43,147 nucleotides of DNA from Rhodospirillales bacterium. Its GTDB lineage: Bacteria; Pseudomonadota; Alphaproteobacteria; BOG-932; Roseiterribacteraceae. Below are positions 1-14,220 of the stretch, piece by piece. Under the pieces are notes generated by a model. That model was not told where the DNA came from. It saw nothing but the letters and a program-made list of their open reading frames with translations, and searched no databases. The stretch is from the NCBI GenBank assembly GCA_003165335.1, contig PLTD01000253.1, positions 1 through 43,147 of the forward strand, given 5' to 3'. The stretch's first letter is position 1; the number at the start of each line of letters is the position of its first letter. The position numbers and the translations under genes are program-made.

Positions 1-418
1 CCTTCAATATGCTTCTCCTTCTGCCCGCGGCGGCAACAAGTGCGTGCCGATGCTTGTAAGAGTCGAGCCAATGGCCGGTCGAAGGAACGGCCTGATTCTG
101 TGAGGATTTTCGATGGCAGTACTACCGGCATTTGGCAGATTGGCTTGACAAACATTGAGTAACGCGAAAACTTCGCAGTCCGTCATTTAACGCCCCTTTG
201 GGGCGGGAAGCCCATTTTTTCTTTTTTGCCCACCCAACAGCGATAAACCACCAAGTCCGGTGTGAAGCCCGACGCACAGTGCCGTCGATGCAACAACTGC
301 TGAAGAGAACAACTGGAGGCATCTTTCGGCGGATTCAGGCACAGTTGTGGGAAAACTGTCACATAAATGGATATTGGCCGCTTGGGTTTTGGCGGCTTGG
401 TCTGCTAGATAACGCGCC
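1..418. other. Region upstream of hisB with no recognised gene
   Basis: No reading frame here resembles a known protein. The plus-strand frame 1 stays open from the window edge to about position 162 and could be the end of a gene outside the window, but its translation is not recognisable. The hslV gene that often lies divergent to hisB in alphaproteobacteria is not seen. The stretch holds a terminator-like hairpin and T-run at 191-227 and a perfect 6-bp inverted repeat, ACAGTT/AACTGT, at 341-346 and 354-359. The hisB promoter must lie here or further upstream, but I could not assign clear -35 and -10 boxes. No histidine-rich leader peptide is visible. Confidence 0.5.
191..227 (+). terminator. 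Probable intrinsic terminator or attenuator-like hairpin pair
   Basis: A perfect 6-bp stem CGCCCC/GGGGCG (191-196 with 200-205, TTT loop) overlaps an alternative 4-bp stem GGGC/GCCC (201-204 with 210-213). The second stem is followed directly by A and then two runs of six T (215-220 and 222-227). The T-rich tract lies on the plus strand, so it would act on transcripts reading rightwards. The two stems share bases 201-204 and 205, so they cannot form together. Confidence 0.45.
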
Positions 419-1039
419 ATGACTGAAAAAAGCGAAAATATGGCCCTTGGTGGCCGACGAGGCGCTGTAACGCGAAATACGTCCGAGACGCGGATCGCGG
501 TGACAGTCGATCTCGACGGGACAGGCAAATACGCGGTCACTACCGGCATCGGGTTTCTTGATCACATGCTGGAACAACTATCGCGGCACAGCCTTATCGA
601 CCTGACGGTTAGGGCCGAAGGCGATTTGCACATCGATTTTCACCACACGACTGAGGATACTGGTATCGCTATCGGCGAGGCGGTGGCCAAGGCTCTTGGC
701 GACCGAAGGGGCATCAACCGCTACGGCCACATCTATATTCCCATGGATGAAACGCTGACGCGCGTGGCGCTCGACTTGTCTAACCGGCCCTACTTGATCT
801 GGAACGTCGAATTTACGCGCGACAAACTGGGTGAGATGGACACGGAACTGTTCAAGGAATGGTTTCAGGCCTTCGCGCAGGCCGCAGGCTGCACGCTGCA
901 TGTCGAGGCGCTGTATGGCACCAACAACCATCACATTGTCGAGACTTGCTTCAAGGGTTTGGCCCGGGCTCTGAAGATCGCGATCGCGCATGATCCACGC
1001 CAATCCGATGCGGTGCCGTCCACAAAAGGCGTGCTGTAA
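419..1039 (+). CDS. hisB: Imidazoleglycerol-phosphate dehydratase HisB
   Basis: Cytoplasmic enzyme of histidine biosynthesis that dehydrates imidazole glycerol phosphate to imidazole acetol phosphate; the family is a manganese enzyme forming a 24-mer. The 206-residue protein carries the diagnostic motifs in order: [30 protein letters not shown] with the metal-binding histidines, LSNRPYL, and [16 protein letters not shown]. It ends in the usual STKGVL-like tail. It is monofunctional, without the phosphatase domain fused in E. coli, as expected for alphaproteobacteria. The ATG at 419 gives a length slightly above the usual 195-200; an in-frame ATG at 440 is an alternative, and neither has a strong ribosome site. 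It heads the his operon, with hisH 25 bases downstream. Confidence 0.97.
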
Positions 1040-1064
1040 GCGGCACGATCAGAACTAAGACCCC

Positions 1065-1712
1065 ATGGAAACAGTCGCTATCGTCGATTGCGGTTCGGGC
1101 AATCTGAAATCTGCCGCTAAAGCCTTTGAACGCGCTGCATTTGAGGCAGAGCGCGGTTTCAAGGTCATGGTAACCAGTGATCCCGATTCAGTTCTGCGCG
1201 CCGATAGGATAGCGCTTCCCGGCCAAGGAGCGTTTGCCGCCGTTTTGGCCGGTGTTGCCGCCGTGTCCGGACTCAGAGAGGCATTGGAAGAAGTGGCGAT
1301 TGCTAAGGCGCGCCCGTTCTTTGGCATATGCGTCGGCATGCAATTGATGGCGACGCGCGGATTGGAGCATGGCGCATATGATGGCTTTGGCTGGATTCCG
1401 GGCGAAGTGATACCTTTGCAGCCGGCCGACCCGGCTCTGAAAGTACCGCATATGGGCTGGAACAATCTTGAAGTCGATCGACCGGAGCATCCAGTAATGC
1501 GTGGTATCAAGACCGGGGACCATGCCTATTTTGTCCACTCCTATCGCTTTGTCTGTGCTGATCCTGCCGATCGGATAGCCTATGCCGACTACGGCGGCGC
1601 GGTAACTGCTGTTATTGGCCGCGACAATTTGATCGGGACACAGTTTCATCCGGAGAAAAGCCAAGCGGTCGGTTTGGCAATGATCGCAGCCTTCCTGGAG
1701 TGGAGGCCCTGA
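1065..1712 (+). CDS. hisH: Imidazole glycerol phosphate synthase, glutaminase subunit HisH
   Basis: Class I glutamine amidotransferase that hydrolyses glutamine and passes ammonia through the HisF barrel, making IGP and AICAR. The 215-residue protein shows the triad: nucleophile Cys89 in GICVGMQ, and His195 and Glu197 in QFHPEKSQ near the C-terminus. The oxyanion-strand LPGQGAF motif is near residue 51, and the PHMGWN and HAYFVHSY segments are typical of HisH. Its partner hisF is in the same operon. The last bases overlap the possible upstream start of the GNAT gene. Base composition is lower in GC than hisF and hisE downstream. Confidence 0.96.
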
Positions 1713-1714
1713 AC

Positions 1715-2260
1715 GTGCCAGCTAACATTTTGCCGCCGCCCAGACTGACGGTCGAGGTCGCCCAGCGCTTGAAGGGCGGAGATCTGAACGATCTGTGCGA
1801 GGCAGCTGAGCTTGCGATCCGGGCTGAGGGCGGATTCGGCTGGCTGAAACCGCCACCGCGCGAGGTTATGGAGCGCTATTGGCGGGGTGTACTCACCGTG
1901 CCGGAGCGCACGCTATTCGTGGGTCGCGTCGACGGAGTAATCGCGGGATCGGTTCAACTCGTGCGACCGCCGCGTAACAATGAGGCGCAGGCGATGGCGG
2001 TCCATGTGACGACAGCGTTCATGGCACCTTGGGCGCGCGGCAACCACCTGGCGCGAGCGCTGCTGGAGGCGGCGGAGGTCAGGGCACTCGAGGACGGATT
2101 TGCGATAATCAATATGGATGTCCGCGAGACGCAACGGGCGGCCATCGCACTCTGTGAGACATTAGGCTACACGCTTTGGGGAACCCATCCGTGCTATGCG
2201 CGGGTCGACGGGCAGTTCGTGCCGGGCCGTTTCTATTTCAAAGATTTGACGAGCACATGA
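1715..2260 (+). CDS. GNAT-family N-acetyltransferase inside the his operon
   Basis: About 181 residues with a GNAT fold. A conserved N-terminal segment is followed by a strand rich in aliphatic residues ([14 protein letters not shown]), then the acetyl-CoA loop region [21 protein letters not shown], a variant of the R/Q-x-x-G-x-G/A motif, and a final [21 protein letters not shown] segment typical of the family. I chose the GTG at 1715 because GGAGG lies 8 bases upstream; an in-frame GTG at 1700 would overlap hisH by 13 bases. The stop overlaps the hisA start as ATGA, so translation is probably coupled. The substrate cannot be read from the sequence. A role tied to histidine or its intermediates is only suggested by position. 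Confidence 0.88.
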
Positions 2261-2985
2261 TTCTTTACCCTGCGATCGACTTGAAGGATGGCGCCTGTGT
2301 GCGCTTGTTGCGCGGCGATATGGCGGCCGTCACCGTCTATAATGAAGATCCAGCTGAACAGGCTCGGCGGTTCGCCGAGTCGGGATTCGCGTGGCTGCAT
2401 CTGGTGGATTTGAACGGTGCGGTTGAAGGCAAGCCGGTTAATGCCAAAGCAGTCGAGTCGATCATCGCCACGACAAAGCTCCCGATCCAATTGGGTGGTG
2501 GCATCCGAAACATCGCGACCATCGAGGATTGGCTTTCTCGCGGTGTAGAGCGCGTTGTTCTGGGGACCGCGGCGGTGCGCAACCCTACTTTGGTCAAGGA
2601 AGCCTGTAACAAGTTTCCAGGTCGCGTGGCTGTGTCGATCGACAGCCGGGAGGGCTTGGTTGCGGTGGAGGGGTGGCGTGAGACATCGACCATGCGCACC
2701 CTAGATCTGGCGTTGGACATGGAGCAGGCTGGCGTTGCTGCAATCGTATTTACGGACATCAACCGAGACGGAGCGATGGGTGGGATCAATTTGGAGGCCA
2801 CGGTGGACCTCGCCTTCGCCCTGACCACTCCGGTGATCGCCTCAGGCGGCATATCCAGCATCGAAGATATCGTTGCGGTGAAGCGCGAGGAAAAATCGGG
2901 CATTGCCGGGGTTATCTGCGGACGCGCCCTGTACGACGGCCGGGTCGATCCCGCCGAGGTGCTCGCAATAATGGCCGCCGAGTAA
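2257..2985 (+). CDS. hisA: ProFAR isomerase HisA
   Basis: Cytoplasmic (beta/alpha)8-barrel enzyme that isomerises ProFAR to PRFAR, the step before the HisH/HisF synthase. The 242-residue protein starts [12 protein letters not shown] and has the catalytic pair Asp8 and Asp129 (in AVSIDSREG). Phosphate-binding loops LGGGIRN (near residue 80) and ASGGISS (near 190-200) mark the two half-barrels. The start at 2257 is fixed by the family N-terminus and by the ATGA overlap with the preceding gene; the longer open frame upstream is not used. hisF begins 9 bases after the stop. Two hand-counted 60-base samples gave about 53-57% GC, clearly below hisF. Confidence 0.97.
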
Positions 2986-2994
2986 GTTGATCCG

Positions 2995-3786
2995 ATGCTG
3001 AAGATACGCGTCATACCCTGTCTCGATGTCAAGGACGGGCGCGTGGTCAAAGGCGTCAACTTCACCCAACTGGTCGATGCCGGCGACCCGGTCGAACAGG
3101 CGCGGGTCTATGACCGCGCCGGTGCCGATGAGCTGACCTTTCTCGACATCACCGCTTCATCCGACAACCGCGCGACCCTCTATGACGCGGTCCGGCGGAC
3201 GGCGGAGCAGGTCTTCATGCCGCTGACCGTCGGCGGCGGGGTGCGCACGGTCGACGACATTCGTACGCTGCTGCTGGCGGGGGCCGACAAGGCCTCGATC
3301 AACACCGCGGCGGTGGCGCGGCCCGAATTCGTCGCCGAGGCGGCCGAGCGGTTCGGCAGCCAATGCATCGTCGTGGCCATTGATGCCAAGTCGACCGGCC
3401 CCGGTAAATGGGAAGTATTTACCCACGGCGGACGCAACGCCACCGGCTATGATGCGATCGAATGGGCGCAGCGCATGGCGGCGGCCGGCGCCGGCGAAAT
3501 CCTGCTGACCTCGATGGACCGGGACGGGACGAAGATCGGATTCGACCTGGCCTTGACCCGGCAGGTTTCCGATGCGGTCCGCATTCCGGTGATCGCGTCG
3601 GGCGGCGTCGGCACGCTGGATCATCTGGTCGAAGGTGTCATCGAAGGCCATGCCAGCGCGGTTCTTGCCGCGTCGATCTTTCATTTCGGGATCTTCACCA
3701 TCGCCGAGGCCAAGGCCAGGCTGGCGGCGGCAGGCATACCGGTACGCCCGGCCATTACCGGTCCGGCCAGCGAGGAGGCAGCCTGA
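2995..3786 (+). CDS. hisF: Imidazole glycerol phosphate synthase, cyclase subunit HisF
   Basis: Barrel enzyme that uses ammonia from HisH to convert PRFAR into imidazole glycerol phosphate and AICAR. The 263-residue protein begins [20 protein letters not shown], with catalytic Asp11 and Asp130 (VVAIDAKS). It has the phosphate loops VGGGVRT near residue 80 and ASGGVGT in the second half, and the HGGRNATG loop typical of HisF. The stop TGA shares its last base with the hisE start. Two hand-counted 60-base samples gave 68-70% GC, so the composition changes sharply between hisA and hisF although they are 9 bases apart. Confidence 0.97.
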
Positions 3787-4121
3787 TGGCCGATTCCCAG
3801 ACCCTCGACCGCCTGTACCAGGCGATCCTGTCGCGCCGCGGCGGCGACCCCGAGACATCCTATACCGCCAAACTATTCATGAGGGGCCGCGCCAAGATCG
3901 CCCAGAAGTTGGGCGAGGAGGCGGTCGAAACCGTGATCGAGGCGATGAAGGATGGCGAGCCGGCCAAGCTGGCCGCCGAATCGGCCGACCTGCTGTATCA
4001 CCTGCTGGTGCTCTGGGCCGACGCTGGGCTTAAGCCTGCGGAAGTCTATGACGTTCTTGCGGCGCGCGAGGGCATCAGCGGCATCGCCGAAAAGGCGTCC
4101 CGCAAGAAGGGAAAGGCGTGA
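3786..4121 (+). CDS. hisE: Phosphoribosyl-ATP pyrophosphatase HisE
   Basis: All-alpha, MazG-like nucleotide pyrophosphatase that hydrolyses PR-ATP to PR-AMP, the second step of the pathway. It is 111 residues, the usual length for a stand-alone HisE, so it is not fused to HisI; hisI is not in the window. The metal-binding signature KLGEEAVETVIEA (near residues 43-55) and ESADLLYHLLVLWAD (near residues 66-80) are present. The start is the ATG sharing its A with the hisF stop (TGATG); the open frame continues upstream only as a shadow of hisF. The same one-base overlap occurs at its own stop with the HIT gene. Confidence 0.96.
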   Translation: MADSQTLDRLYQAILSRRGGDPETSYTAKLFMRGRAKIAQKLGEEAVETVIEAMKDGEPAKLAAESADLLYHLLVLWADAGLKPAEVYDVLAAREGISGIAEKASRKKGKA

Positions 4122-4489
4122 TGGCGTACGACGACAACAATATCTTCGCCCGCATCCTGCGCGGCGAAATCCCGGCGAAGCCGGTCTATGAAGACGAATA
4201 TGTGCTCGCCATCAACGACATCAACCCGCAGGCGCCGACCCATATTCTGGTGATGCCCAAGGGCAAATACGTGTCCTTCGACGATTTCTCGGCAAAGGCC
4301 AGCGACGCGGAGATCACCGCCTTCATGCGCGCCACGGGCAAGATCGCGCGCGACGCCGGCGTGGACGCGACAGGCTATCGCCTGATTTTCAACCACGGGC
4401 CGGACAGCCACCAGGAAGTGCCGCATCTGCATGTCCATATTCTGGGCGGCCGGCCGATGGGGTTTCTGATCGCCCGTACGGCGGCGTGA
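4121..4489 (+). CDS. HIT-family nucleotide-binding hydrolase (HinT-like)
   Basis: A 122-residue histidine-triad protein. The triad is His102, His104 and His106 in PHLHVHILGG. Upstream are the NIFARILRGEIPA N-terminal motif and AFNDI-like segment LAINDINPQAP that bind the nucleotide. HinT proteins hydrolyse adenosine phosphoramidates and related adenylates; the physiological substrate is uncertain. It is translationally coupled to hisE through a TGATG overlap and is the last gene of the his transcript, an arrangement I recall as common in alphaproteobacteria. A GTG three bases earlier is also possible but less likely. Confidence 0.93.
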   Translation: MAYDDNNIFARILRGEIPAKPVYEDEYVLAINDINPQAPTHILVMPKGKYVSFDDFSAKASDAEITAFMRATGKIARDAGVDATGYRLIFNHGPDSHQEVPHLHVHILGGRPMGFLIARTAA

Positions 4490-4635
4490 CCATTCCGGAT
4501 GATGTGCGCGGCGCAGTTCAGACGCTCCGTCAACGCATAGCCTTATCTTCACCACACGATTGACATAATCGTATTCCAACTATTGTGTAGTCGGTAATGT
4601 GAGTGATGGCCGGGACACCGGCCAAGGAGAGTAGA

Positions 4636-4845
4636 GTGTCAGCTTCCAGTACGAAGCCTGGCTCCGGTAACGGGCCTGCCTGGCTTGATCAGGTTCTTGG
4701 ATGTCTGTCCCCGCCTTTTTCATTCCGCAACGGCGGATCTGCGATCACGGGCTCGAAAGGCCCCGATGGCAAGCCGGCGCAGCAAAGCGCCGCGATTCGC
4801 AAGGTTGACGGAGCCGCCCAGCCGAAAGGCCGGCAGCGGAGTTAG
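4636..4845 (+). CDS. Possible small protein, 69 residues, unknown
   Basis: I do not recognise this product. The GTG start at 4636 is supported by AAGGAG at 4624-4629, six bases upstream, which directly follows a GC hairpin. The predicted peptide is rich in Gly, Ala, Ser, Pro and Lys, with no obvious signal peptide or membrane segment. A different overlapping plus-strand frame (about 4685-4879) encodes an arginine-rich peptide of similar length, so the frame choice is unsure. The region could equally be a structured non-coding RNA. Confidence 0.28.
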   Translation: MSASSTKPGSGNGPAWLDQVLGCLSPPFSFRNGGSAITGSKGPDGKPAQQSAAIRKVDGAAQPKGRQRS

Positions 4846-4893
4846 GGACAGCCGGCGGGCCGCAAGACCCACCGAATGAGACATGACTAACGA

Positions 4894-4930
4894 CAGCGAC
4901 GCCAAGGGCAACCCGGCGCCGCTGTTTTCT
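4894..4930 (+). terminator. Strong intrinsic terminator-like hairpin
   Basis: A long stem is built from CAGCG (4894-4898) with CGCTG (4920-4924), CGCC (4900-4903) with GGCG (4915-4918), and an inner GGG/CCC (4906-4908 with 4912-4914) around a CAA loop. It is followed at once by TTTTCTT from 4925. Orientation is plus, so it would end transcription from the his operon or from a short unit starting near 4560, and shield it from the minus-strand DUF35 gene that ends at 4973. Confidence 0.6.
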
Positions 4931-4972
4931 TATGTGGGCCATCGAATTTTCATCCGGGAATGACGATGAGTA

Positions 4973-5365
4973 TTATCCCACCGGATGCCAGACGGTCAGC
5001 GGTGGGTCGCCCTCAAAGAGGGCGCGCACGCGCATTCCGATTACGGGCGCAGGGGCGGCAAGCCGCCCGATCATCCGAATATCGTCCTGCTCGTCGATCT
5101 GGACCTCGACCGTGACGTAAGGCACATCGTCCTGGAAGGCGCGCATGAAGACCTGGTGGGTGCGCACCCAGCTGATGATGGTGCCCAGCCCGCTGACCGC
5201 AACCCATTCTGCCTGGAAACTGTGGCAGCGGTTGCAAATGGCGCGCGCCGGCCAGCGATATGCGCCGCAGCCGGAACAGCGCTGCAGCCGAAGTTCGCCC
5301 GCACTGACCCCCTCCCAATAGGGAGCGGAGTCGCGGTCGGGGTGCGGAACCGGGCGGTCGCTCAC
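4973..5365 (-). CDS. DUF35 OB-fold / zinc-ribbon protein (thiolase or aldolase partner)
   Basis: A 130-residue DUF35 protein: an N-terminal rubredoxin-like zinc ribbon with Cys30, Cys33, Cys44 and Cys47 (CSGC and CNRC), followed by an OB-fold domain ending at the acyl-CoA-binding face. DUF35 proteins partner thiolase-like enzymes, or act in steroid side-chain aldolase and hydratase complexes. Its start overlaps the stop of the thiolase-like gene as ATGA, so the two are probably made as a pair. The gene ends 43 bases from the terminator-like hairpin of the opposite strand. Confidence 0.9.
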   Translation of the reverse strand: MSDRPVPHPDRDSAPYWEGVSAGELRLQRCSGCGAYRWPARAICNRCHSFQAEWVAVSGLGTIISWVRTHQVFMRAFQDDVPYVTVEVQIDEQDDIRMIGRLAAPAPVIGMRVRALFEGDPPLTVWHPVG

Positions 5366-6525
5366 GATCCGCCTTCCAGCAGCAGGGCGCTGGTGACGCC
5401 GCCGACATAGCCGGGCGCGCCGGTGCTGAGCGCGATCCGGGCGCCCGTCACCTGCCGGTCGCCGGCCTGGCCGCGCAGCTGCGCCGCCGCCTCGGCGATA
5501 TGGTTCCAGCCGTGGACATAGCCCTCGGACAAAAACCCGCCATGGGTGTTGACCGGCATCGACCCGCCCAGCGCCGTCGCGCCCGACAGCGTGAACGCTC
5601 CGCCCTCGCCCTTGGCGCAGAATCCGTAATCCTCAAGCTGGATCAGGACGGCGGGGGTGAAACAGTCATAGATCATCGCGACATCGACATCGGCCGGTTT
5701 GAGTCCCGCCATCCCGAACAGGCGGGGGGCCATCTGTGCGGCCAGCGAGGTGCCGGGCGGGGGCTGCTGGTTGGAAAACAAGGTCTGCCCGCCGCCCCAG
5801 GCCGCCGCGCGGATCGTCACGGGCGGTTGCTTGAGGTCCCGGGCCCGCTCGGCGCTGCAGACCAGCACCGCGACCGCGGCGTCGGTCTCCAGGCAGCAAT
5901 CGAGCAGCCGGAACGGCTCAACCACCCAACGCGAGGCTAGGTATTCCTCATAGGTGATCGGTGTTCGCATCAGTGCGTGCGGGTTCAGCGACGCGTGGCG
6001 CCGCTGGGTTACGGCGACCGCGCCCAGATGGCGCTCGGTCACGCCATAGCGCTGCATATAGGCCTGGGCGACCATCGCATATTGCTGGGGCGGGGCGACA
6101 TAGCCATAGGGCGCCTGGTATTGGGTCTCGATCGAATCGACCGTCGGCCGTCCGGTGCCGCCCATGCGGAATTCCGAACGGGCGTTGATCGCGCGATAGC
6201 ACACGACATAGTCGGCGACGCCCGCCGCGACCGCCATCGCCGCCTGCCCCACAACCGCCTGGGATGAGCCGCCGCCGCCGAAATGATCGACGAAATAATG
6301 CAGGTCGCGAATGCCCATCGCCTGGGCGACGACCGAAGAGGGTATGGAATCGCCCACCCTGTGGGTTGCGATCCCATCCAGCCGGGCCGGGTCTAGGCCC
6401 GCGTCCTGCAGCGCCGCCATGATCGCGCGGGTCGCGAGCGTCAGTGTGCTGACGCCCGAGTTTTTCGAGAATTCGGTGTATCCGACACCGGCGATCGCCG
6501 CCTTGTCGGCCAGATCGAACGCCAT
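5362..6525 (-). CDS. Thiolase-like protein (SCP2/Ltp2 type, possible aldolase)
   Basis: A 387-residue protein of the lipid-transfer/SCP2 thiolase family, with AGVGYTEFSKNSG at the N-terminus and NTHGGFLSEGYVHGWNHIAEA near residues 326-346. The position where true thiolases carry the nucleophilic cysteine reads FGGGGSSQA (residues 82-90), so that Cys is absent. The C-terminal segment STGAPGYVGG also lacks the usual second Cys. Tyr286 and Tyr336 lie in regions where, as I recall, Ltp2-type retro-aldolases have catalytic tyrosines. With the DUF35 partner, this points to an aldolase-like C-C cleavage on a CoA thioester rather than thiolysis, which is inference. The start at 6525 is chosen from the family N-terminus and a GGAGG/AAGGA site; the open frame continues further upstream. 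Confidence 0.88.
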   Translation of the reverse strand: MAFDLADKAAIAGVGYTEFSKNSGVSTLTLATRAIMAALQDAGLDPARLDGIATHRVGDSIPSSVVAQAMGIRDLHYFVDHFGGGGSSQAVVGQAAMAVAAGVADYVVCYRAINARSEFRMGGTGRPTVDSIETQYQAPYGYVAPPQQYAMVAQAYMQRYGVTERHLGAVAVTQRRHASLNPHALMRTPITYEEYLASRWVVEPFRLLDCCLETDAAVAVLVCSAERARDLKQPPVTIRAAAWGGGQTLFSNQQPPPGTSLAAQMAPRLFGMAGLKPADVDVAMIYDCFTPAVLIQLEDYGFCAKGEGGAFTLSGATALGGSMPVNTHGGFLSEGYVHGWNHIAEAAAQLRGQAGDRQVTGARIALSTGAPGYVGGVTSALLLEGGS

Positions 6526-6540
6526 CGATATCCTTGCCTC

Positions 6541-6570
6541 CCCGGGTGATGTGATTATCATCGGGCCGCC
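6541..6570. promoter_or_regulatory. Imperfect inverted repeat in the divergent promoter region
   Basis: The 93-base gap between the divergent thiolase-like and CoA-transferase genes contains TGAT (6547-6550) and ATCA (6557-6560) separated by six bases, flanked by CCC at 6541-6543 and GGG at 6563-6565. The symmetry suits a dimeric repressor such as a TetR or MarR family protein, but no regulator gene lies next to it. Evidence is symmetry and position only. Confidence 0.25.
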
Positions 6571-6618
6571 AGGGGAACAAGCGAGCGGTCGGTTGGACAT
6601 GAAGCGAAAAGCGGCGGA

Positions 6619-7830
6619 ATGACCAGTGTCGAAATTTTCGGTGGTGTGCGCGTGGTCGAGTTGGCGCAATATGTCATGGTCCCCTCGACCGGCGCGATGC
6701 TGGCGGATTTCGGAGCAGAGGTCATCAAGGTCGAAACCCCGGGCATCGGCGACCCCTATCGCAATCTAGTCGTCGATGTCCGTGGCGCCGGAAGGCCCAA
6801 TTACAGCCTCGAACAGAACAATCGCGGCAAAAAGAGCATCGCGCTGGACCTTAAGGCCCCGGCCGGTCTGGCGCTATTCTATCGCCTGATCGAGACTGCC
6901 GATGTATTTCTGACCAGCCTGCGTCCCGGTGCGCTGAAGCGCATGGGACTGGATGTCGCCGATCTGCGCAAACGCAACCCCAGGCTGATCTATGCCCGGG
7001 CGAACGGTCTGGGCTTCAAGGGGGCCGAGGCCGACAAGCCCGGCTTCGATGCCAGCGCCTTCTGGTCGCGCGGCGGATTCGCCCATCTGTTAACCCCGCT
7101 GTCCGGCGAATTCATCCGCCAGCCGCGTGCGCTGGGCGACCATTCGGCGGCGATGAACCTGGCATTCGGCGTCGCAGGTGCCCTGTTTCGCCGCGCCACA
7201 ACCGGAGAGCCCTCGCTGATCGAGACCTCGCTGCTGGCGACCGCCGCTTGGGTTCTGTCCAATGATCTTGTCGCCGCCCAGGATGGTGCTCACGATACGA
7301 ACCTCCAGCGCAAGGCGGTGGAGCGCAATCCGCTCGTCGGCACCTACCGGACTCGCGACGGCCGCTGGATTCAGCTCGTCTTCCTGGAGCCCCAGCGCTA
7401 TTGGCCGAGCCTTTGCGTGGCGCTCGGCCGGACCGATTTGAGTGCCGATCCGCGCTATGCCGACGCCAAAGCGCGAACGGCGAACGGGGTTGAACTTCTG
7501 GCGCTGTTGTCGGAGATCTTCGCCGCAAAGGATTGGGCCGAGTGGAGGCCCAGTTTCGACTGTCTGGACGCACCGTGGGAGTTGGTACGATCGATCGAGG
7601 ACGTGTTCACAGATCCGCAGACGATCGCGAACGGACATATCTTCGAGCTCGGCACAACAGACGGCACGCCCGTTAAGCTGGTTGCGTCGCCGCTGACGGT
7701 GGATGGTATGCCCGGCACTGGCGAGCGCCTGGCGCCGGATTGCGGTCAGCATACCGACGCTCTACTGGCCGAATGCGGCATTTCGCCTTTGGAAATCGAA
7801 TCTTTGCGCCGTGCTGGCGTCTTGTCATAG
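6619..7830 (+). CDS. CaiB/BaiF (family III) CoA-transferase
   Basis: Family III CoA-transferases move CoA between carboxylic acids through an aspartyl-CoA intermediate. The 403-residue product has the N-terminal GVRVVELAQYVMVPSTGAMLADFGAEVIKVE signature region, NNRGKKSIALDLK near residues 67-79, and the catalytic Asp at about residue 174 in ALGDHSAAMNLAFG. Length matches the family (about 400). It most likely activates a carboxylic acid for the neighbouring enzymes; the acid cannot be deduced. The amidohydrolase gene follows 10 bases after the stop, so the two are co-transcribed. The first half is visibly more GC-rich than the second. Confidence 0.92.
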   Translation: MTSVEIFGGVRVVELAQYVMVPSTGAMLADFGAEVIKVETPGIGDPYRNLVVDVRGAGRPNYSLEQNNRGKKSIALDLKAPAGLALFYRLIETADVFLTSLRPGALKRMGLDVADLRKRNPRLIYARANGLGFKGAEADKPGFDASAFWSRGGFAHLLTPLSGEFIRQPRALGDHSAAMNLAFGVAGALFRRATTGEPSLIETSLLATAAWVLSNDLVAAQDGAHDTNLQRKAVERNPLVGTYRTRDGRWIQLVFLEPQRYWPSLCVALGRTDLSADPRYADAKARTANGVELLALLSEIFAAKDWAEWRPSFDCLDAPWELVRSIEDVFTDPQTIANGHIFELGTTDGTPVKLVASPLTVDGMPGTGERLAPDCGQHTDALLAECGISPLEIESLRRAGVLS

Positions 7831-7840
7831 GGAGGTCAAT

Positions 7841-8965
7841 ATGGACTGCCGCGTTATCTCTGCGGACAACCATATCAACGAGCCGCCATGGGTGTTCGAC
7901 CGTGTGCCCGTTGCGCTGAAGGACCGCGCGCCGAAGATGCTGCGCGGTGCCGACGGCGGGGACGGCTGGAGCTTCGACGGCGGACCGCCCAAACGCACAT
8001 TCGGGATCGAGGCCATGGCCGGGTTCGAGAAAAAGGATTTTCGGCTCGGTGGCCTTCGATTCGATCAGATCAGACCCGGAAACTACGATGGCGTCGAGCA
8101 TCTAAAGGATATGGATATCGACGGCGTCTACGGCTCTGTGACTTATCCGGCCAATGTCATCCAGGTCTACAGCATGGCCGATCGCGAGATGGCACTAGCC
8201 TGTCTCAAATCCTACAACGACTGGATGCTGGAGGATTTCCAGCCGGTCGACCCCAAGCGGCTGATCGCATTGCCGATGCTTCCGACAGAAGATGGGATTG
8301 AAACCTGCTTGACCGAGTTCGATCGTGTGATGGCAAAGGGGGCCAAGGCACTCTTTATCCCCGGGATGCCCGAGCGTCCGTATAACGACCCCTATTATGA
8401 GCCGTTATGGAAGTTGGCGAGCGAAGCCGGAGTGGCCCTCACTTTCCACCGAACGTTCGGCGGTAAACCTGACAAATCCGACTGGGACGAGCTGGCGAAC
8501 CAAAAGGTAAGCGTCGGTGGAATCGTCTTTCGCTATTTCTCAGGCGTGCGACCGCTGACCTATATGATTTTTGCCGGCATTTTTGATCGTCATCCCAACC
8601 TGAAGATCGTCGCAGGGGAGGTGGATGCGGGCTGGGTGCCGTTCTGGATCCAGACGATGGACCACCACTGGGAAGCTCAGCAGGCTTGGTTCCCGCAGAG
8701 CCTAGAGCACCCACCATCTGACTTCGTCGGCGTCAATGTCTTCACCACCGCAATCGACGACTACGTCGGGTATGATCTTATAACAACGGGCAAGTATCCA
8801 ACTTTGGCGAATGCGACGATGTTCTCGTCTGACTATCCCCATAGCGCTACTATTTGGCCTAACTCAGCGAAGGTTGCCGAGAAAGTTACACGGAACATGA
8901 GTCCGGTGGATCGCTATAAGGTATTGGAAGGAAACGCGAGCAGGGTATTCGGTTTCGGAAGGTAG
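7841..8965 (+). CDS. Amidohydrolase-2 family metal-dependent hydrolase or decarboxylase
   Basis: A 374-residue TIM-barrel enzyme of the amidohydrolase-2 family. Metal-ligand motifs are the N-terminal SADNHINEP (Asp9, His11), a central TFHRTFGG histidine, and the C-terminal FSSDYPHSATIWP aspartate. Members either hydrolyse or decarboxylate aromatic and other acids; ACMS decarboxylase is a known relative. The start at 7841 has GGAGG at 7831-7835; the frame is open further upstream inside the CoA-transferase gene but that is not used. With the CoA-transferase, the thiolase-like pair and the nearby Rieske enzyme it suggests breakdown of a cyclic or aromatic acid, which is inference. Confidence 0.9.
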   Translation: MDCRVISADNHINEPPWVFDRVPVALKDRAPKMLRGADGGDGWSFDGGPPKRTFGIEAMAGFEKKDFRLGGLRFDQIRPGNYDGVEHLKDMDIDGVYGSVTYPANVIQVYSMADREMALACLKSYNDWMLEDFQPVDPKRLIALPMLPTEDGIETCLTEFDRVMAKGAKALFIPGMPERPYNDPYYEPLWKLASEAGVALTFHRTFGGKPDKSDWDELANQKVSVGGIVFRYFSGVRPLTYMIFAGIFDRHPNLKIVAGEVDAGWVPFWIQTMDHHWEAQQAWFPQSLEHPPSDFVGVNVFTTAIDDYVGYDLITTGKYPTLANATMFSSDYPHSATIWPNSAKVAEKVTRNMSPVDRYKVLEGNASRVFGFGR

Positions 8966-9303
8966 GCACTAGCCTTCTCCGTAAAACCCGGGAGAAAGTC
9001 TACGAACAAAACGGGGACCTGTGCGGGTTCCAGGGTCGACTTATCTTTGATGCCGGTACGAGAAGATTCGGCTGCTGTTCGCGCCCGGTCCGAGGGCGTG
9101 TCGCTGGACCGAGTTGTGATGCCCGAGCTAGGTGTCCTAGCGCTTTTTACCGAGGCCGCCAATCGAATGCATCTGAGCGCGCGGGGTGATATCGCGACGT
9201 GAAAGCAGCCCGAATTTTGGCAGATCTTGATGGCGCCGGCTGTGTGCGACGCTTGCATATAGCCGAGGCTCTGAGTAACCGGCGGCCGGCGCCGGGGCGG
9301 TAA
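8966..9303 (+). pseudogene. Decayed 3' end of a comM-like gene (Mg-chelatase/YifB family)
   Basis: No intact gene lies here, but plus-strand fragments resemble the C-terminus of ComM, an AAA+ branch-migration helicase used in natural transformation. One frame (about 9029-9202) reads SRVDLSLMPVREDSAAVRARS, then ALFTEAANRMHLSARG, matching the family's LLDRIDLHVEV and LLTRAAEAMRLSARGY segments. It then hits TGA at 9200-9202. A second frame (about 9196-9303) continues with VKAARILADLDGA and VRRLHIAEALSNRRPAPGR then TAA, matching the family's VARTIADLAGA and HIAEALSYRR ending. The upstream segment near 8995-9030 may match in yet another frame. At least one frameshift plus loss of the N-terminal two thirds make this a relic. 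The match is by memory, not by alignment. Confidence 0.62.
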
Positions 9304-9309
9304 TGCGGA

Positions 9310-10353
9310 TCAAGCGGCCGTCGTCAGAGACTCACGGACCAGTTTCTGGAAGTGCCATACACCGCCTTCATGCCGGGGGCTAAGGCGGCCAGTGTCATAT
9401 AGACCGGCATCCAGGTTGCGCTGAACCGCCTCGCAGATGCGCGCGTCTTCTTGCGTTACCTGCAGCGCGGCTGCGAGTGCTGAAGTTATGGCTTTTTGTC
9501 CCCGATCCGAAGTGTCCTGAAAATAGAAGTTGTAGATCAACTTCGTCCGATGCGGACCCATTGGCACAATGCGCTCGATGTTCATGCCTTTTGGATAAAT
9601 GTTGAGCGCTAGGTTGGGAAAGCGCCATAGCCAAAGTCCGGAATAATTCGCCCCGTCTCGTTGCGGAGCGCGGTGAACTGCGTGCCGGTCCTTTATAATC
9701 ACTTGGTACTGGTTTGACTCGATCTCCTGGTCCAGGCCGGGATGCATTGCCTTGATGTGGTAACCCTCGGAATAATTATCGACATAGGTCTTCCAATTGC
9801 AGGCGATCTCATGCTCGGCGTGGCTATGGAAGCGATACGTTTCGATAGGAAAGTCTACCGTTTCAACGCTGAGCGGCGCCATAGCCTGATTGAGTGGCGA
9901 TGCCGCTGCATCGAGATTGACGAAAATATGACCTCGCCAAATGCCGGCCTGAATTGGGAAAAGCCCGAAATCTTGCTTGTCGAATCCGGCAGCATCACCG
10001 AACTCAGGCGTACGGCGAAGCGATCCTTTCGTATCGTAGACCCAGCCGTGATAGCGGCAACGCAAAACGTCGCAATGTCCTTGCCCATCCCAGAGAATTG
10101 GGCCGGCGCGATGGCGACAAACATTGTGAAACGCCCGCAAGATCCCATCGCGGTCGCGGATGACGAAGATCGGCCAACCTGCAATGATGTCGGTTAGGTA
10201 GCTACCGGGCTCGGGCAATTCCTCAGTTCGGCCGACCATCAGCCATTCGCGTCCGAAGATGGCGCGCCGCTCGCTTTCCCAAATGTGCGGGTCGGCACCG
10301 TACCAAGCGGCAGGCAGGGTGGTTGCGTTCGAAAGTTCTGCGTTGGTTGTCAT
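9310..10353 (-). CDS. Rieske non-heme iron oxygenase, alpha subunit
   Basis: A 347-residue ring-hydroxylating oxygenase. The Rieske [2Fe-2S] site is Cys79-x-His81 (CRHRAG) and Cys99-x2-His102 (CRYHGW). The mononuclear iron site is seen in VDNYSEGYHIKAMHPGL: bridging Asp192 and ligands His199 and His204. Length and layout are those of oxygenases acting on aromatic acids, quaternary amines or O-methyl groups; the exact substrate is not readable. No ferredoxin or reductase gene is adjacent, so electron partners must be elsewhere. It is divergent from the APC permease, with 138 bases between, and its 3' end abuts the comM relic. Confidence 0.92.
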   Translation of the reverse strand: MTTNAELSNATTLPAAWYGADPHIWESERRAIFGREWLMVGRTEELPEPGSYLTDIIAGWPIFVIRDRDGILRAFHNVCRHRAGPILWDGQGHCDVLRCRYHGWVYDTKGSLRRTPEFGDAAGFDKQDFGLFPIQAGIWRGHIFVNLDAAASPLNQAMAPLSVETVDFPIETYRFHSHAEHEIACNWKTYVDNYSEGYHIKAMHPGLDQEIESNQYQVIIKDRHAVHRAPQRDGANYSGLWLWRFPNLALNIYPKGMNIERIVPMGPHRTKLIYNFYFQDTSDRGQKAITSALAAALQVTQEDARICEAVQRNLDAGLYDTGRLSPRHEGGVWHFQKLVRESLTTAA

Positions 10354-10491
10354 CTTTGCCTATGCTCGGCCAGCCTTGCTCCGGCCAGTACAATCAGCGC
10401 AATTATCAGGATTTTCTGGCTTTTGGACAACGCGAATATCGACGCAGTGGAGCCGAGTGGGCATAGTGAAGCCAGACCTTAATAGGGTGGC

Positions 10492-11814
10492 ATGACTAGA
10501 TCGCATCCCCGAAAGCTCGGCCCGGTATTGGCCACGATGTTCGTAACCGGCAATATGGTCGGGTCAGGCCTGTTCCTTCTGCCGGCCACGTTGGGCAGCA
10601 TCGGCGGGATTTCGGTCTTTACCTGGGGGCTGGCCACGATCGGCGCCCTTCTTATCGCCGGGGTATTTGCCCGGTTGGGGGTGTTGGCGCCTTGGGCCGG
10701 TGGCCCCTATGCCTATGCCCGAGCAACCATGGGGCGCTATTTCGGTTTCCAGACCAACTACATCTATTGGATTTCCTGCTGGGTAGGAAACGTCGGGATC
10801 GCGCTGGCGGTGACGGGTTATTTGGCAGAGCTCTTTCCTGCTTTGAAGCCGTCGATGCTTTCGGCCACGACCACTTCAGCCGTCATCTGGATAATGGTTG
10901 GAGCCAACATCGCAGGTCCTCGGATCATTGGAACGATTGAGGCGGTAGCGATGTTGGTCGGCTTGGCTCCGGTCTTGGCGATCGGCATATTCGGCTGGTT
11001 CTATTTCGATCCTGATATCTTTGCGGCATCGTGGAATGTGTCGGGTCGATCCGCCTTTTTGGCGGTTCCGGCATCGCTGGTCCTGGTATTTTGGGCATTC
11101 ACGGGGCTGGAAAGCGCTGCTGTAGCCGTGGAGGTTGTCGAGAATCCCAGGCGAAATCTCCCGATCGCAGCATTGGGAGGCGTTGCGCTTGCCGCCGTAA
11201 TCTATGCCGTTTCCTGCACTGTGCTGATGGGGATCGTCCCGGCCAAGGACCTTGCGGAATCTTCGGCCCCTTTCGCATTGGTGGCCCGTCAGATCTTTGG
11301 GCCGGCGGTCGCTACGCTACTGATCCTAACGACCATTCTTAAAGCCTCTGGAACCCATGGAGGCTGGACTCTGGTGTCTGCCGCCACAGCCAAGGCTGCA
11401 GCAGAGGACGGGGCGTTCCCGCGTTTATTCGGAATCGTTAATAGTCGGGGAATCCCGGTGCGTAGTTTGCTCGCTCATGGGGTTCTGATGACGGCTGCGG
11501 CCTTTGCGACGATTTCTCCGACCATCGGGCAGCAATTCAGCAAGCTGATTGATGTATCCGTGGTTTTTTCACTGACCTCATATGTCTATAGCGCGATCGC
11601 GCTAATACGCTTGCGGCCCATGGATGCGCCTGGTGCCGTTCGCGACCGGGTGATGGCCGTGCTCGCCGGTCTGTTTTCGATTTGGGTCATTGCCGCCTCC
11701 GATGCCACCCTCTTGCTCGTCGGGACAGCGATTCTCGCATCCAGCATTCCGCTCTATCCATTTTACAAAGGGCGCAGGAGCATAATGCCCATAGTTGTAG
11801 GGCAGGAAGCGTGA
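10492..11814 (+). CDS. APC-superfamily amino acid/polyamine transporter (AdiC-like)
   Basis: A 440-residue inner-membrane protein with about 12 hydrophobic segments. The TM1 signature GNMVGSGLFLLPA (residues 20-32) is the unwound substrate-binding loop of APC transporters. GGPYAYARATMG and FQTNYIYWISCWVGN (near residues 65-100) resemble the basic amino acid/polyamine antiporter branch that includes AdiC and PotE. It probably moves amino acids or amines, possibly by exchange. It is translationally coupled to the EamA gene (TGA/GTG overlap) and followed by the secreted M20 peptidase, which suggests uptake of peptidase products. Confidence 0.9.
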   Translation: MTRSHPRKLGPVLATMFVTGNMVGSGLFLLPATLGSIGGISVFTWGLATIGALLIAGVFARLGVLAPWAGGPYAYARATMGRYFGFQTNYIYWISCWVGNVGIALAVTGYLAELFPALKPSMLSATTTSAVIWIMVGANIAGPRIIGTIEAVAMLVGLAPVLAIGIFGWFYFDPDIFAASWNVSGRSAFLAVPASLVLVFWAFTGLESAAVAVEVVENPRRNLPIAALGGVALAAVIYAVSCTVLMGIVPAKDLAESSAPFALVARQIFGPAVATLLILTTILKASGTHGGWTLVSAATAKAAAEDGAFPRLFGIVNSRGIPVRSLLAHGVLMTAAAFATISPTIGQQFSKLIDVSVVFSLTSYVYSAIALIRLRPMDAPGAVRDRVMAVLAGLFSIWVIAASDATLLLVGTAILASSIPLYPFYKGRRSIMPIVVGQEA

Positions 11815-12743
11815 CCCGCTTCAAAGCGGATCTATTACTACTGTTGACCGCGCTGATCTGGGGTACGGCTTTCGTCGCTCAGAAGCTCGGGAACGCTAAG
11901 GTCGGCCCTTACCTCTTCGTGTCAGGTAGGTTTGCCCTATCCGCGCTTCTTCTGATGCCGTTGGCCTATTGGGAGGCTCGGCGCGGCCGCGACCTCCGAA
12001 GGCGGGACTGGGCGTTGAGTGGGGTAATCGGCCTGACTTTGTGCGCCGGCTCGACCATGCAGCAGGTTGGCCTGACCTCAACGACGGTAACAAATGCGGG
12101 ATTCATCACTACGGTCTACATTGCCCTCGTACCCTTCGTTGCTTGGGCGATACTGCGCACGGCCCTGCGTCCGTTAGTCTTGGTCGCTGTCATAGTATCG
12201 CTGTCAGGTGCGTGGTTGCTCGCTTATCACGGCGAGTCGGCGCAACTGAACATGGGCGACCTTCTCGTTTTCGCGTCGGCATTTCTTTATGCGTTGCACA
12301 TCGTGCTGGTGTCGATCTTCCTAAAAGTAACGCACCGCCCATTCTTCCTGTCCTTGCTGCAATATTCAGTGACGGCTGTCATCGCGGGCGCGATCGGCTT
12401 TGCCGTTGAGTCGGCGAACCGGCAAGCGGCCCAGGACGCGCTCCCGACCATCCTCTATGCGGGCTTATTGTCAGGCGGCGTCGGCTATACGCTGCAGATT
12501 GTTGCGCAACGCTATACTCCGGCGACCGAGGCGGCGTTGATCATGTCGCTGGAAAGCGTGTTCGCGGCCCTTGCTGCGGCAGTCGTGCTGGGAGAGCGGT
12601 TGACACAGTTGGCGGCGGTGGGTTGCGCGCTGATATTGCTGGGCGTCGTGTTGGTCGAGATCGTCCCGGTCCTGGTGCGTGGGCGTTCAGTGAACGGGCA
12701 GATAGACGAAATGCCACCGATTGGCGCCGCGCCCTTAGATTGA
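11811..12743 (+). CDS. EamA/DMT-family transporter
   Basis: A 310-residue inner-membrane protein with two EamA repeats of about five helices each. The first begins LLLLLTALIWGTAFVAQKLG and the second begins near MGDLLVFASAFLYALHIVLV; the motif ESVFAALAAAVVLGERLT at the end of the second repeat is diagnostic. Family members usually export amino acids or related metabolites. The GTG start at 11811 overlaps the permease stop and has AGGAAG a few bases upstream; the longer upstream frame is inside the permease. The M20 peptidase starts 11 bases after the stop. Confidence 0.9.
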   Translation: MTRFKADLLLLLTALIWGTAFVAQKLGNAKVGPYLFVSGRFALSALLLMPLAYWEARRGRDLRRRDWALSGVIGLTLCAGSTMQQVGLTSTTVTNAGFITTVYIALVPFVAWAILRTALRPLVLVAVIVSLSGAWLLAYHGESAQLNMGDLLVFASAFLYALHIVLVSIFLKVTHRPFFLSLLQYSVTAVIAGAIGFAVESANRQAAQDALPTILYAGLLSGGVGYTLQIVAQRYTPATEAALIMSLESVFAALAAAVVLGERLTQLAAVGCALILLGVVLVEIVPVLVRGRSVNGQIDEMPPIGAAPLD

Positions 12744-12754
12744 AAGAACTGGCC

Positions 12755-14176
12755 ATGGGGTTCAAACGTTCTCAAGTTCTTAACGCTGCGACGGTTCTGG
12801 CGTTGATGACTGTGTCTGGAGGAGGAGCGTCGGCGCAGAGCTCTACCCAGGACTGGCATGCCTTCGGGCGGGATGTCTTAAAACAGCTGGTTGAGATCAA
12901 CTCGGTCCATGCCAATGGGTCGACTGGGGCCACCCTGGCCATTGCCGAAAGGCTTACTGCTGCAGGCTTTTCCAGGGAGGATTTCCAACTTCTGTCTCCG
13001 CCCGGTCATCCCACTAAGGGTGATATCGTTGTGCGCCTGAAGGGCACGGGGAAGTTGCGGCCGATGCTCTATATAGGCCATCTCGATGTTGTTGAGGCCG
13101 AAAAAGCCGATTGGACATATGACCCGTTCAAGTTGATCGAGAAGGACGGCTGGCTTTATGGTCGGGGCACGATCGACATGAAAGGGCAGGATTCATCGAC
13201 CCTTACCGCACTGATCCGGCTGAAAAAAGAGGGTTATGTGCCGGACCGCGATATCATCGTCGCCTTCACGGCAGATGAGGAAGCGGGGGGCGAGCAAAGC
13301 GGTGTCGACTGGCTGGCAAAGAACCATCGCGACTTAATCGATGCGGAGTTCGTGATCAATCCCGACTCGGGTGACGCAGCCTCTAAGAATGGCCGGAAGC
13401 TCTATCTGGGGATTCAAACCAGCGAGAAAGAATATATGACGTTCGGCTTGGAGGCGTCCGATAAGGGCGGGCACAGTTCGGAGCCGACGCCGGCCAACCC
13501 GATCTATCATGTGGCGTCTGGGTTAGACCGTCTGTCGAAATACCAGTTTCCGTTGCATCTAACAGATACCAGCCGAGCCTACTTTGCCCAGCGCGCAAAG
13601 TTGGAGACCGGCCAAGTTCGAGCCGACATGCTGTCGGTTGCCGGCTCCTCGCCCGACCCTGCTGCAGTTGCGCGACTGTCGGCGGTCGTTGAAACGAATG
13701 TCATGCTGCGCTCCACGTGCGTGGCGACCGAATTTCAGGGTGGGCGCAGCGAAAGCGCGCTGCCTGAGAAGGCGGCAGCCGTCATCCAATGCCGGATTAT
13801 TCCCGGTGAGTCCCAGGCATCAGTCGAACAGGCAATTACCGACACGGTCGCCGATCCGGCGGTAAAACTTACCGTGATCTATCCACCGGATATCAGTCCC
13901 GAGTCTGCAATCGATCCGAGAATCTTCGGAGAGGTCCAGGAACTAGGCAAGGAGATGTGGCCCGGGGTGATCGTGGTCCCGGAGATGTCGCCGGGCGCAT
14001 CGGACAGCGCCTTTACCCGTGCGGTCGGTCTGCCCAGCTACGGCGTGGACGGCACGTTTCAAGACCTGGATGACAACCGTGCTCATGGCCGCGACGAGCG
14101 CGTGGGCATTGAGGCATTCAATCAGGAACTCGACTTCAGCTATCGCTTGATGAAGGACCTGAGTCGGATACCGTAG
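12755..14176 (+). CDS. Secreted M20-family metallopeptidase
   Basis: A 473-residue M20/M25/M40 di-zinc peptidase with a signal peptide (residues 1 to about 27, ending GGASAQ), so it acts in the periplasm or beyond. Active-site motifs: GHLDVVE (His109, Asp111), GRGTIDMKGQ with bridging Asp141, DEEAGGE with catalytic Glu175 and Glu176, and NPDSGD near residue 204. A lid (dimerisation) domain occupies roughly residues 215-340. Members cleave dipeptides or N-acyl and carbamoyl amino acids. The ATG at 12755 is chosen because it gives the signal peptide. The gene closes the permease/EamA operon and converges on the TonB-dependent receptor 44 bases away. Confidence 0.92.
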   Translation: MGFKRSQVLNAATVLALMTVSGGGASAQSSTQDWHAFGRDVLKQLVEINSVHANGSTGATLAIAERLTAAGFSREDFQLLSPPGHPTKGDIVVRLKGTGKLRPMLYIGHLDVVEAEKADWTYDPFKLIEKDGWLYGRGTIDMKGQDSSTLTALIRLKKEGYVPDRDIIVAFTADEEAGGEQSGVDWLAKNHRDLIDAEFVINPDSGDAASKNGRKLYLGIQTSEKEYMTFGLEASDKGGHSSEPTPANPIYHVASGLDRLSKYQFPLHLTDTSRAYFAQRAKLETGQVRADMLSVAGSSPDPAAVARLSAVVETNVMLRSTCVATEFQGGRSESALPEKAAAVIQCRIIPGESQASVEQAITDTVADPAVKLTVIYPPDISPESAIDPRIFGEVQELGKEMWPGVIVVPEMSPGASDSAFTRAVGLPSYGVDGTFQDLDDNRAHGRDERVGIEAFNQELDFSYRLMKDLSRIP

Positions 14177-14184
14177 GGGAAGGA

Positions 14185-14212
14185 AGGGTGCCGGATTTAG
14201 GTCGGCAGCCCT
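14185..14212. terminator. Hairpin between convergent genes, possible bidirectional terminator
   Basis: AGGG (14185-14188) pairs with CCCT (14209-14212) and GCCG (14190-14193) with CGGC (14203-14206) around a nine-base loop. It lies between the M20 peptidase stop and the receptor stop. No T-run follows on either strand, so activity as an intrinsic terminator is uncertain. Confidence 0.3.
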
Positions 14213-14220
14213 CTGGAAGG

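Follow-up and report, generated by a model that had tools for sequence, protein, structure and literature searches.

We describe here a pair of overlapping genes that probably encodes a retro-aldolase for CoA thioesters, an enzyme of the thiolase fold that would depend on a DUF35 partner and work with two tyrosines. The pair lies on the minus strand, at positions 4,973 to 6,525 of the window, by which we mean the whole 43,147-nucleotide stretch of Rhodospirillales DNA that was analysed. The larger protein belongs to the thiolase fold family, lacks the thiolase nucleophile and carries two tyrosines whose place is conserved, and its DUF35 partner is conserved with it. Aldolases of the thiolase fold have been characterised mainly for steroids, and to our knowledge no activity is known for any member of the clade to which this protein belongs.

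The gene pair and its fold

5362..6525, minus strand: predicted thiolase-fold, two-tyrosine CoA-thioester aldolase, 387 aa (ORF, Pfam Thiolase_C_1, PDB match 6ok1)
4973..5365, minus strand: DUF35 partner, 130 aa, with zinc ribbon and OB fold, GTG start (ORF and Pfam)
5225..5278, minus strand: C4 zinc motif C-x2-C-x10-C-x2-C in the DUF35 protein

The stop of the aldolase frame and the start of the DUF35 frame share four nucleotides, GTGA, so that the two genes are translationally coupled, not fused; the overlap reported by an earlier, sequence-only reading of this DNA is thus real, while its wording "fused in translation" does not apply to what are two separate ORFs. Its naming of the overlapping gene as DUF35 agrees with Pfam, which finds zf-ChsH2 and OB_ChsH2_C in the 130-aa protein and Thiolase_C_1 in the 387-aa protein, and the smaller protein matches the DUF35 chains of two solved aldolase complexes (9myr_B, 4.8e-18; 6ok1_B, 2.5e-11).

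For the larger protein, the top PDB sequence match is Thermomonospora curvata Ltp2 (TcLtp2; 6ok1, E 2.7e-90), followed by 4u4e and then by CtSal (9myr). An AlphaFold2 model built from 42 sequences (mean pLDDT 89.1, pTM 0.92) retrieves with Foldseek first 6ok1_C (TM-score 0.90/0.92, rmsd 2.4), then 6ok1_A and then CtSal 9myr_A. Alignment and model together show a thiolase fold without the nucleophile Cys, as in the broad group of Ltp2-, Sal- and IpfD-type aldolases.

Active-site residues

6271..6273, minus strand: Gly85 codon, column of the missing thiolase nucleophile Cys (alignment with SCP2-thiolase 6hsj)
5668..5670, minus strand: Tyr286 codon, aligned with TcLtp2 Tyr294 (general base)
5662..5664, minus strand: Cys288 codon, column of TcLtp2 His296 and CtSal Cys304 (alignment)
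5518..5520, minus strand: Tyr336 codon, aligned with TcLtp2 Tyr344 (general acid), thiolase GHP-His column

The segment GGGGSSQA, from which the loss of the catalytic Cys had been proposed, spans residues 83-90, and the column that holds Cys in SCP2-thiolase 6hsj is occupied by Gly85. The two tyrosines suspected to be catalytic fall exactly on residues 294 and 344 of TcLtp2, described as base and acid, respectively, in passages of PMC12329534; given the E-value of the 6ok1 alignment and the same spacing of 50 residues in both proteins, we do not regard this match as due to chance. Neither of the two outcomes that the sequence-only reading had named as refuting it arose, as no Cys lies in the nucleophile column and both tyrosines fall on published catalytic positions. 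The aldolase reading is supported by this alignment and by the 6OK1-like model, the activity being a predicted one.

The further statement that a C-terminal Cys is also absent was incomplete, as the SCP2-thiolase compared lacks a Cys in that C-terminal stretch too, and a Y286-D-C288-F motif had been overlooked. In enzymes of the SCP-2/Sal type, a working second Cys is located in an HDCF/YDC motif (PMC12329534, in the part consulted), and this column, which holds the second Cys of SCP2-thiolases and Cys304 of CtSal, is that of Cys288 in the window protein.

DUF35-coupled thiolases do exist, and three of them (7pxp, 5m3k and 6esq) are among our PDB matches by sequence and/or Foldseek, which lends some colour to a thiolase or a Claisen-type acyltransferase (BbsAB- or PhlABC-like) that works with another nucleophile; however, Gly fills the nucleophile column, Tyr fills the GHP-His column and the BbsB-type score is only 133 bits against a cut-off of 750, so that such an enzyme is very improbable.

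Conservation in the clade and a possible link between residues 288 and 336

A scan of genome contigs for relatives yielded 61 loci, 31 of which (L017-L047) are at least 59% identical to the window protein, while the remaining ones reach at most 45%. Together with the window these 31 form a clade of 32 members (L017 being represented in the alignment by the same gene, L013) that spans Pseudomonadota, Myxococcota and Actinomycetota. Tyr286 and Tyr336 are both kept in all 32 aligned members, and Tyr286 is invariant in the 42 sequences of A1. A same-strand DUF35 gene follows the aldolase in 31 of the 32 loci (30 of 31 in the main scan, there with the C4 motif, plus the separately placed L017), the sole miss being L038, whose contig ends after 590 bp. 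In the sponge-type Acidimicrobiia (L030-L046), the aldolase and DUF35 frames do not overlap, the latter lying roughly 0.4-1.35 kb further downstream; by eye, these loci also have 2Fe-2S and MoxR-like genes nearby.

This conservation bears on the idea of a non-catalytic or decaying pseudo-enzyme that serves as a scaffold. Thiolase catalysis has indeed been lost, but the frame is open, an ortholog in the same synteny is 85% identical, and the tyrosine pair and DUF35 are kept across three phyla, so that we give this idea hardly any credence.

Residue 288 behaves differently from the tyrosines, with Ala in 28 of the 32 clade members and Cys in four, and Cys288 is therefore probably dispensable. 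We accordingly dropped it as an essential hybrid catalytic residue; it may be an optional remnant of an SCP-2/Sal-type active site. The same count weighs against catalysis in the fashion of Sal, with Tyr286 as the base, Cys288 as the general acid and Tyr336 in a structural role. The YDCF motif does resemble YDCY of CtSal and YDCF of TbSLP, and CtSal needs its Cys according to passages of PMC12329534, yet Tyr336 is kept in all 28 members in which residue 288 is Ala, and we consider this mode unlikely.

Over a set of 113 proteins, drawn by similarity to the query and including five PDB fragments, the states at 286/288/336 are YAY (47), YCH (27), YCY (13), YNY (9), YHY (5), YSH (2), YGY (1), YSY (1), YCQ (1) and other (7). 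Where both 286 and 336 are Tyr (76 proteins), residue 288 is A, C, N, H, G or S; where Tyr286 is combined with His or Gln at 336 (30 proteins), it is only C (28) or S (2). Position 288 thus seems free in the presence of Tyr336 and bound to Cys or Ser next to His or Gln, a pattern that is suggestive only. It fits published mutants, as a change of TcLtp2 His296 lowers activity only 14-fold and the C304A/S/H mutants of CtSal are dead (both from passages of PMC12329534). With four changes at 336 and 15 at 288, but only two independent pairs, the association carries no significance. A clade that keeps the tyrosine pair while fixing neither His nor Cys at position 288 offers a natural test of which residue donates the proton.

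Relationship to Ltp2

The 113 sequences were reduced to 78 tree rows by dropping five odd-motif paralogs and near-copies above 85% identity, and a tree was computed with IQ-TREE (bootstrap/SH-aLRT support) after removal of columns 286, 288 and 336. The window's clade forms 13 rows with support 100/98 and lies, as does the 16-row Ltp2 group with TcLtp2 (100/98), within a 48-row Tyr336 group (100/98); the window protein is outside the Ltp2 group. An 18-row YCH clade is the sister of the Tyr336 group, and IpfD is a long, weakly placed branch (69/55) outside it. The separate, supported clade makes the window protein a relative of Ltp2, not Ltp2 itself, and the family models agree: its top NCBIfam match, NF005892, scores 415.5 bits and does not reach the curated cut-off of 469. 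The second catalytic Tyr of Ltp2 sensu stricto (Tyr344) has its counterpart in Tyr336, while the YDHF motif with His296 is replaced by YDCF.

A true steroid side-chain aldolase, which like Ltp2 takes the propionyl unit off C3 side chains, would account for the nearest solved structure, the common tyrosine pair and the identity of the top NCBIfam model. Against it stand the score below the cut-off, the position outside the 16-row group, YDCF instead of YDHF, a DUF35 protein that is not fused to MaoC, and the neighbourhood, as no acyl-CoA dehydrogenase or hydratase, MaoC included, was detected within 8 kb of the aldolase (window 1-14525), whereas the Ltp2 locus used for comparison encodes two proteins of each kind, dehydrogenase and MaoC. 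On these grounds of cut-off, clade, motif and neighbours we rejected steroid Ltp2 as the identity of the protein and hold it to be quite improbable; a steroid substrate is likewise unlikely, and the substrate would then be a non-steroid one. The family models that match proteins of this kind hide the likely chemistry behind the names thiolase, acetyl-CoA acetyltransferase or lipid-transfer protein.

Occurrence, gene neighbourhood and oxygenases

The clade is separate and widespread, found in Actinomycetota and Myxococcota (with Amycolatopsis circi, Williamsia soli and Dactylosporangium species among its culturable carriers) and rare in Alphaproteobacteria: among 385 alphaproteobacterial genomes surveyed, the close type occurs in two, the window's own and one of the same genus, and any match at E 1e-90 in ten. 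The gene order shared by these two genomes (the second being G001, locus L017) is hisB-hisH-GNAT-hisA-hisF-HIT / DUF35-aldolase / CoA-transferase-amidohydrolase / Rieske-APC, with an extra TetR gene between CoA-transferase and amidohydrolase in L017. The ORF that separates hisH from hisA, at 1700-2260 of the window and likewise in G001, was identified by eye as a GNAT-like acetyltransferase. The neighbours concerned here, all syntenic in G001, are:

6619..7830, plus strand: CaiB/BaiF-type CoA-transferase, divergent neighbour, presumed to load CoA (Pfam CoA_transf_3, 324 bits)
7838..8965, plus strand: Amidohydro_2 protein, PtmU3/DitZ-related, probably mononuclear (Pfam; start at 7838 chosen by us within ORF 7703-8965)
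9310..10353, minus strand: Rieske non-haem oxygenase alpha subunit (Pfam Rieske and Ring_hydroxyl_A)

The neighbouring CoA-transferase, to whose pathway the sequence-only reading had tied the pair, is indeed the divergent neighbour of the aldolase in both genomes. The Rieske alpha subunit has carnitine monooxygenase as its top PDB match (1.7e-37) and is a candidate pathway member only. We also considered a carnitine-like substrate, hinted at by the CoA-transferase, by the carnitine/glycine-betaine-monooxygenase-like Rieske protein and, in relatives, by a betaine-aldehyde-dehydrogenase-like ALDH, but did not retain it, as every score falls far below the curated cut-off.

Neighbour classes were counted up to 8 kb on each side (phmmer, 1e-10) in loci called with home-made gene callers; as the loci are related the counts are given without p-values, and as the queries come partly from the same loci they are biased. 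The MaoC query was cut to its MaoC part, since the uncut query matched nearly every locus through its own DUF35 domain.

Window's clade, non-sponge (n=18: the window, 16 genome loci and plasmid-collection locus L110): CoA-activating 17, oxygenase-type 16 (two of them, L020 and L021, only weak luciferase-family matches), hydratase 3, acyl-CoA dehydrogenase 2, ALDH 8
Own-paralog clade (n=5): CoA-activating 5, oxygenase 5, hydratase 0, dehydrogenase 0
YCY sister clade (n=6): CoA-activating 5, oxygenase 2, hydratase 6, dehydrogenase 3
YCH (n=12): CoA-activating 11, oxygenase 3, hydratase 7, dehydrogenase 2
Ltp2 and kin (n=8): CoA-activating 7, oxygenase 3, hydratase 6, dehydrogenase 6
IpfD locus: ligase and Rieske

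In its non-sponge loci, the window's clade combines CoA-activating and oxygenase-type genes with few hydratases, and in this it differs from its sister clades. Short or near-duplicate sponge-type loci (L030, L033, L034, L038, L042, L045) and plasmid locus L109 were left uncounted. Two results run counter to the pattern: nine sponge Acidimicrobiia loci show neither CoA-activating nor hydratase genes and only weak luciferase-family matches, and no CoA-activating gene or oxygenase was detected within the 8-kb flanks of L110. The luciferase class is the weakest evidence, because luciferase-family proteins can also be reductases.

The own-genome paralog (L008, G000:C26:35000-54000, at 7455-9946) is 44% identical to the window protein and has YDAY and the Tyr; besides DUF35, its cluster contains several AMP ligases, a cyclase-like gene and an oxidoreductase of the luciferase family, and similar gene sets occur in relatives from Sphingomonas, Rhizorhabdus and Halioglobus. 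In actinobacterial loci, the aldolase repeatedly has a DUF7700 protein nearby (186 aa in L036, 10959-11519).

Two types of Amidohydro_2 protein recur. The c25 type (DFPHPD) has an acidic residue two positions after the His of DYPH/DFPH in five of five cases, a marker of a binuclear site in the part of PMC7782822 consulted; the c18 type (DYPHS followed by Ala or Val) has Ala or Val at that position in nine of nine. Adjacent c25 and c18 genes are found in five loci (L036 at 3364-5696, L022, L027, L029 and L040). The window has c18 only, without the acidic residue (DYPHSA); no c25 was found within 8 kb in the window or L017, and the top own-genome match to c25 is 28% identical. PtmU3 is described, in passages of PMC10811679, as a beta-hydroxylase of the amidohydrolase superfamily that accepts CoA-ligated substrates; the window amidohydrolase is related, but as the binuclear marker is missing, we rejected it as a dinuclear beta-hydroxylase of this kind. 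A motif scan for a Rieske ferredoxin in the five c25/c18 loci gave none in four and one motif-only match, in a 175-aa frame, in L029; the want of a convincing ferredoxin weakens the oxygenase idea.

Proposed reaction and pathway

The two-tyrosine mechanism is carried over from one enzyme, TcLtp2, as described second-hand in the part of PMC12329534 consulted. By this analogy, the neighbouring CoA-transferase would load the substrate on CoA, and the resulting beta-hydroxyacyl-CoA would dock in the thiolase CoA cleft, with the DUF35 protein forming a wall. Tyr286 would remove the proton from the beta-hydroxyl, cleavage of the C-alpha/C-beta bond would leave an acyl-CoA enolate along with an aldehyde or a ketone, and Tyr336 would give the proton back to the enolate, releasing acetyl-CoA or propionyl-CoA.

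The pathway is possibly fed by an oxygenase. Tentatively, and with considerable doubt, we suggest that the clade as a whole is an oxygenase-fed CoA-thioester cleavage module apart from steroid side-chain removal. An acid would be loaded on CoA, an oxygenase whose type would vary by lineage (Rieske, amidohydrolase-related, P450 or flavin) would add the beta-hydroxyl directly, replacing dehydrogenase and hydratase, and the aldolase-DUF35 pair would cut, as in ibuprofen breakdown, on other, probably natural, substrates. The combination of Cys288 with Tyr336 would then preserve an intermediate state between the Cys-acid site of Sal and the Tyr-acid site of Ltp2. The clade probably marks a degradation route that has not yet been described.

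Comparison with known systems

TcLtp2 with the DUF35 domain of ChsH2 (6OK1) shares with the window pair the thiolase fold, both catalytic tyrosines, the lack of a nucleophile Cys and a DUF35 partner with a C4 zinc motif. It differs in YDHF for YDCF and in its separate clade; its DUF35 is joined to MaoC in one protein, whereas the window DUF35 stands alone, and its neighbours belong to a steroid pathway, whereas nothing local to the window points to steroids.

The Comamonas testosteroni pair CtSal-CtShy (9MYR), whose substrate is a bile acid, has in common the fold, the Tyr base, the Cys of the YDC motif and the DUF35 partner. CtSal carries Gln where the window protein has Tyr336, and CtShy a C3H1 zinc finger (PMC12329534, in the part consulted) where the window DUF35 has the C4 motif; the Cys that acts as the acid in Sal is present as Cys288, but is Ala in most of the clade. 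SCP2-thiolases and TbSLP share the fold and, in HDCF/YDCF, a Cys at the position of Cys288; the nucleophile Cys and GHP His of SCP2-thiolases are Gly85 and Tyr336 in the window protein.

The adjacent c25/c18 genes recall AibH2/AibH1 of the AibH1H2 monooxygenase (described in passages of PMC7782822). In the open-licence PMC literature we found no link between IpfD and Ltp2, no PtmU3 with an aldolase or DUF35, and no non-steroid use of Ltp2.

IpfD-IpfE is encoded on plasmid pIBU218 (L115) in the order Rieske alpha and beta, thiolase-like IpfD, OB-fold IpfE and AMP-binding ligase, the gene HRJ34_RS27705 being taken as ipfD by this order, which is our own assignment. In the part of PMC9195938 consulted, the ibuprofen step is called a retro-aldolase reaction to propionyl-CoA and 4-isobutylcatechol, and elsewhere a thiolase one. 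The role of IpfD rests on pathway genetics. Close to the ipf cluster, the same plasmid encodes a second relative (L108 8588-10152; pIBU218 50938-52502), an Ltp2-like YDHF aldolase, 46% identical, accompanied by an OB-fold gene, a gene resembling enoyl-CoA hydratase and a CoA-transferase gene. IpfD itself is 38% identical to the window protein and, on its long and unsure branch, does not group with it, yet it likewise has Gly at the nucleophile column and YDAF with the second Tyr, corresponding to YDxF and Tyr in the window, and as in the window a stand-alone OB-fold partner gene is accompanied by CoA-activating and Rieske oxygenase genes nearby.
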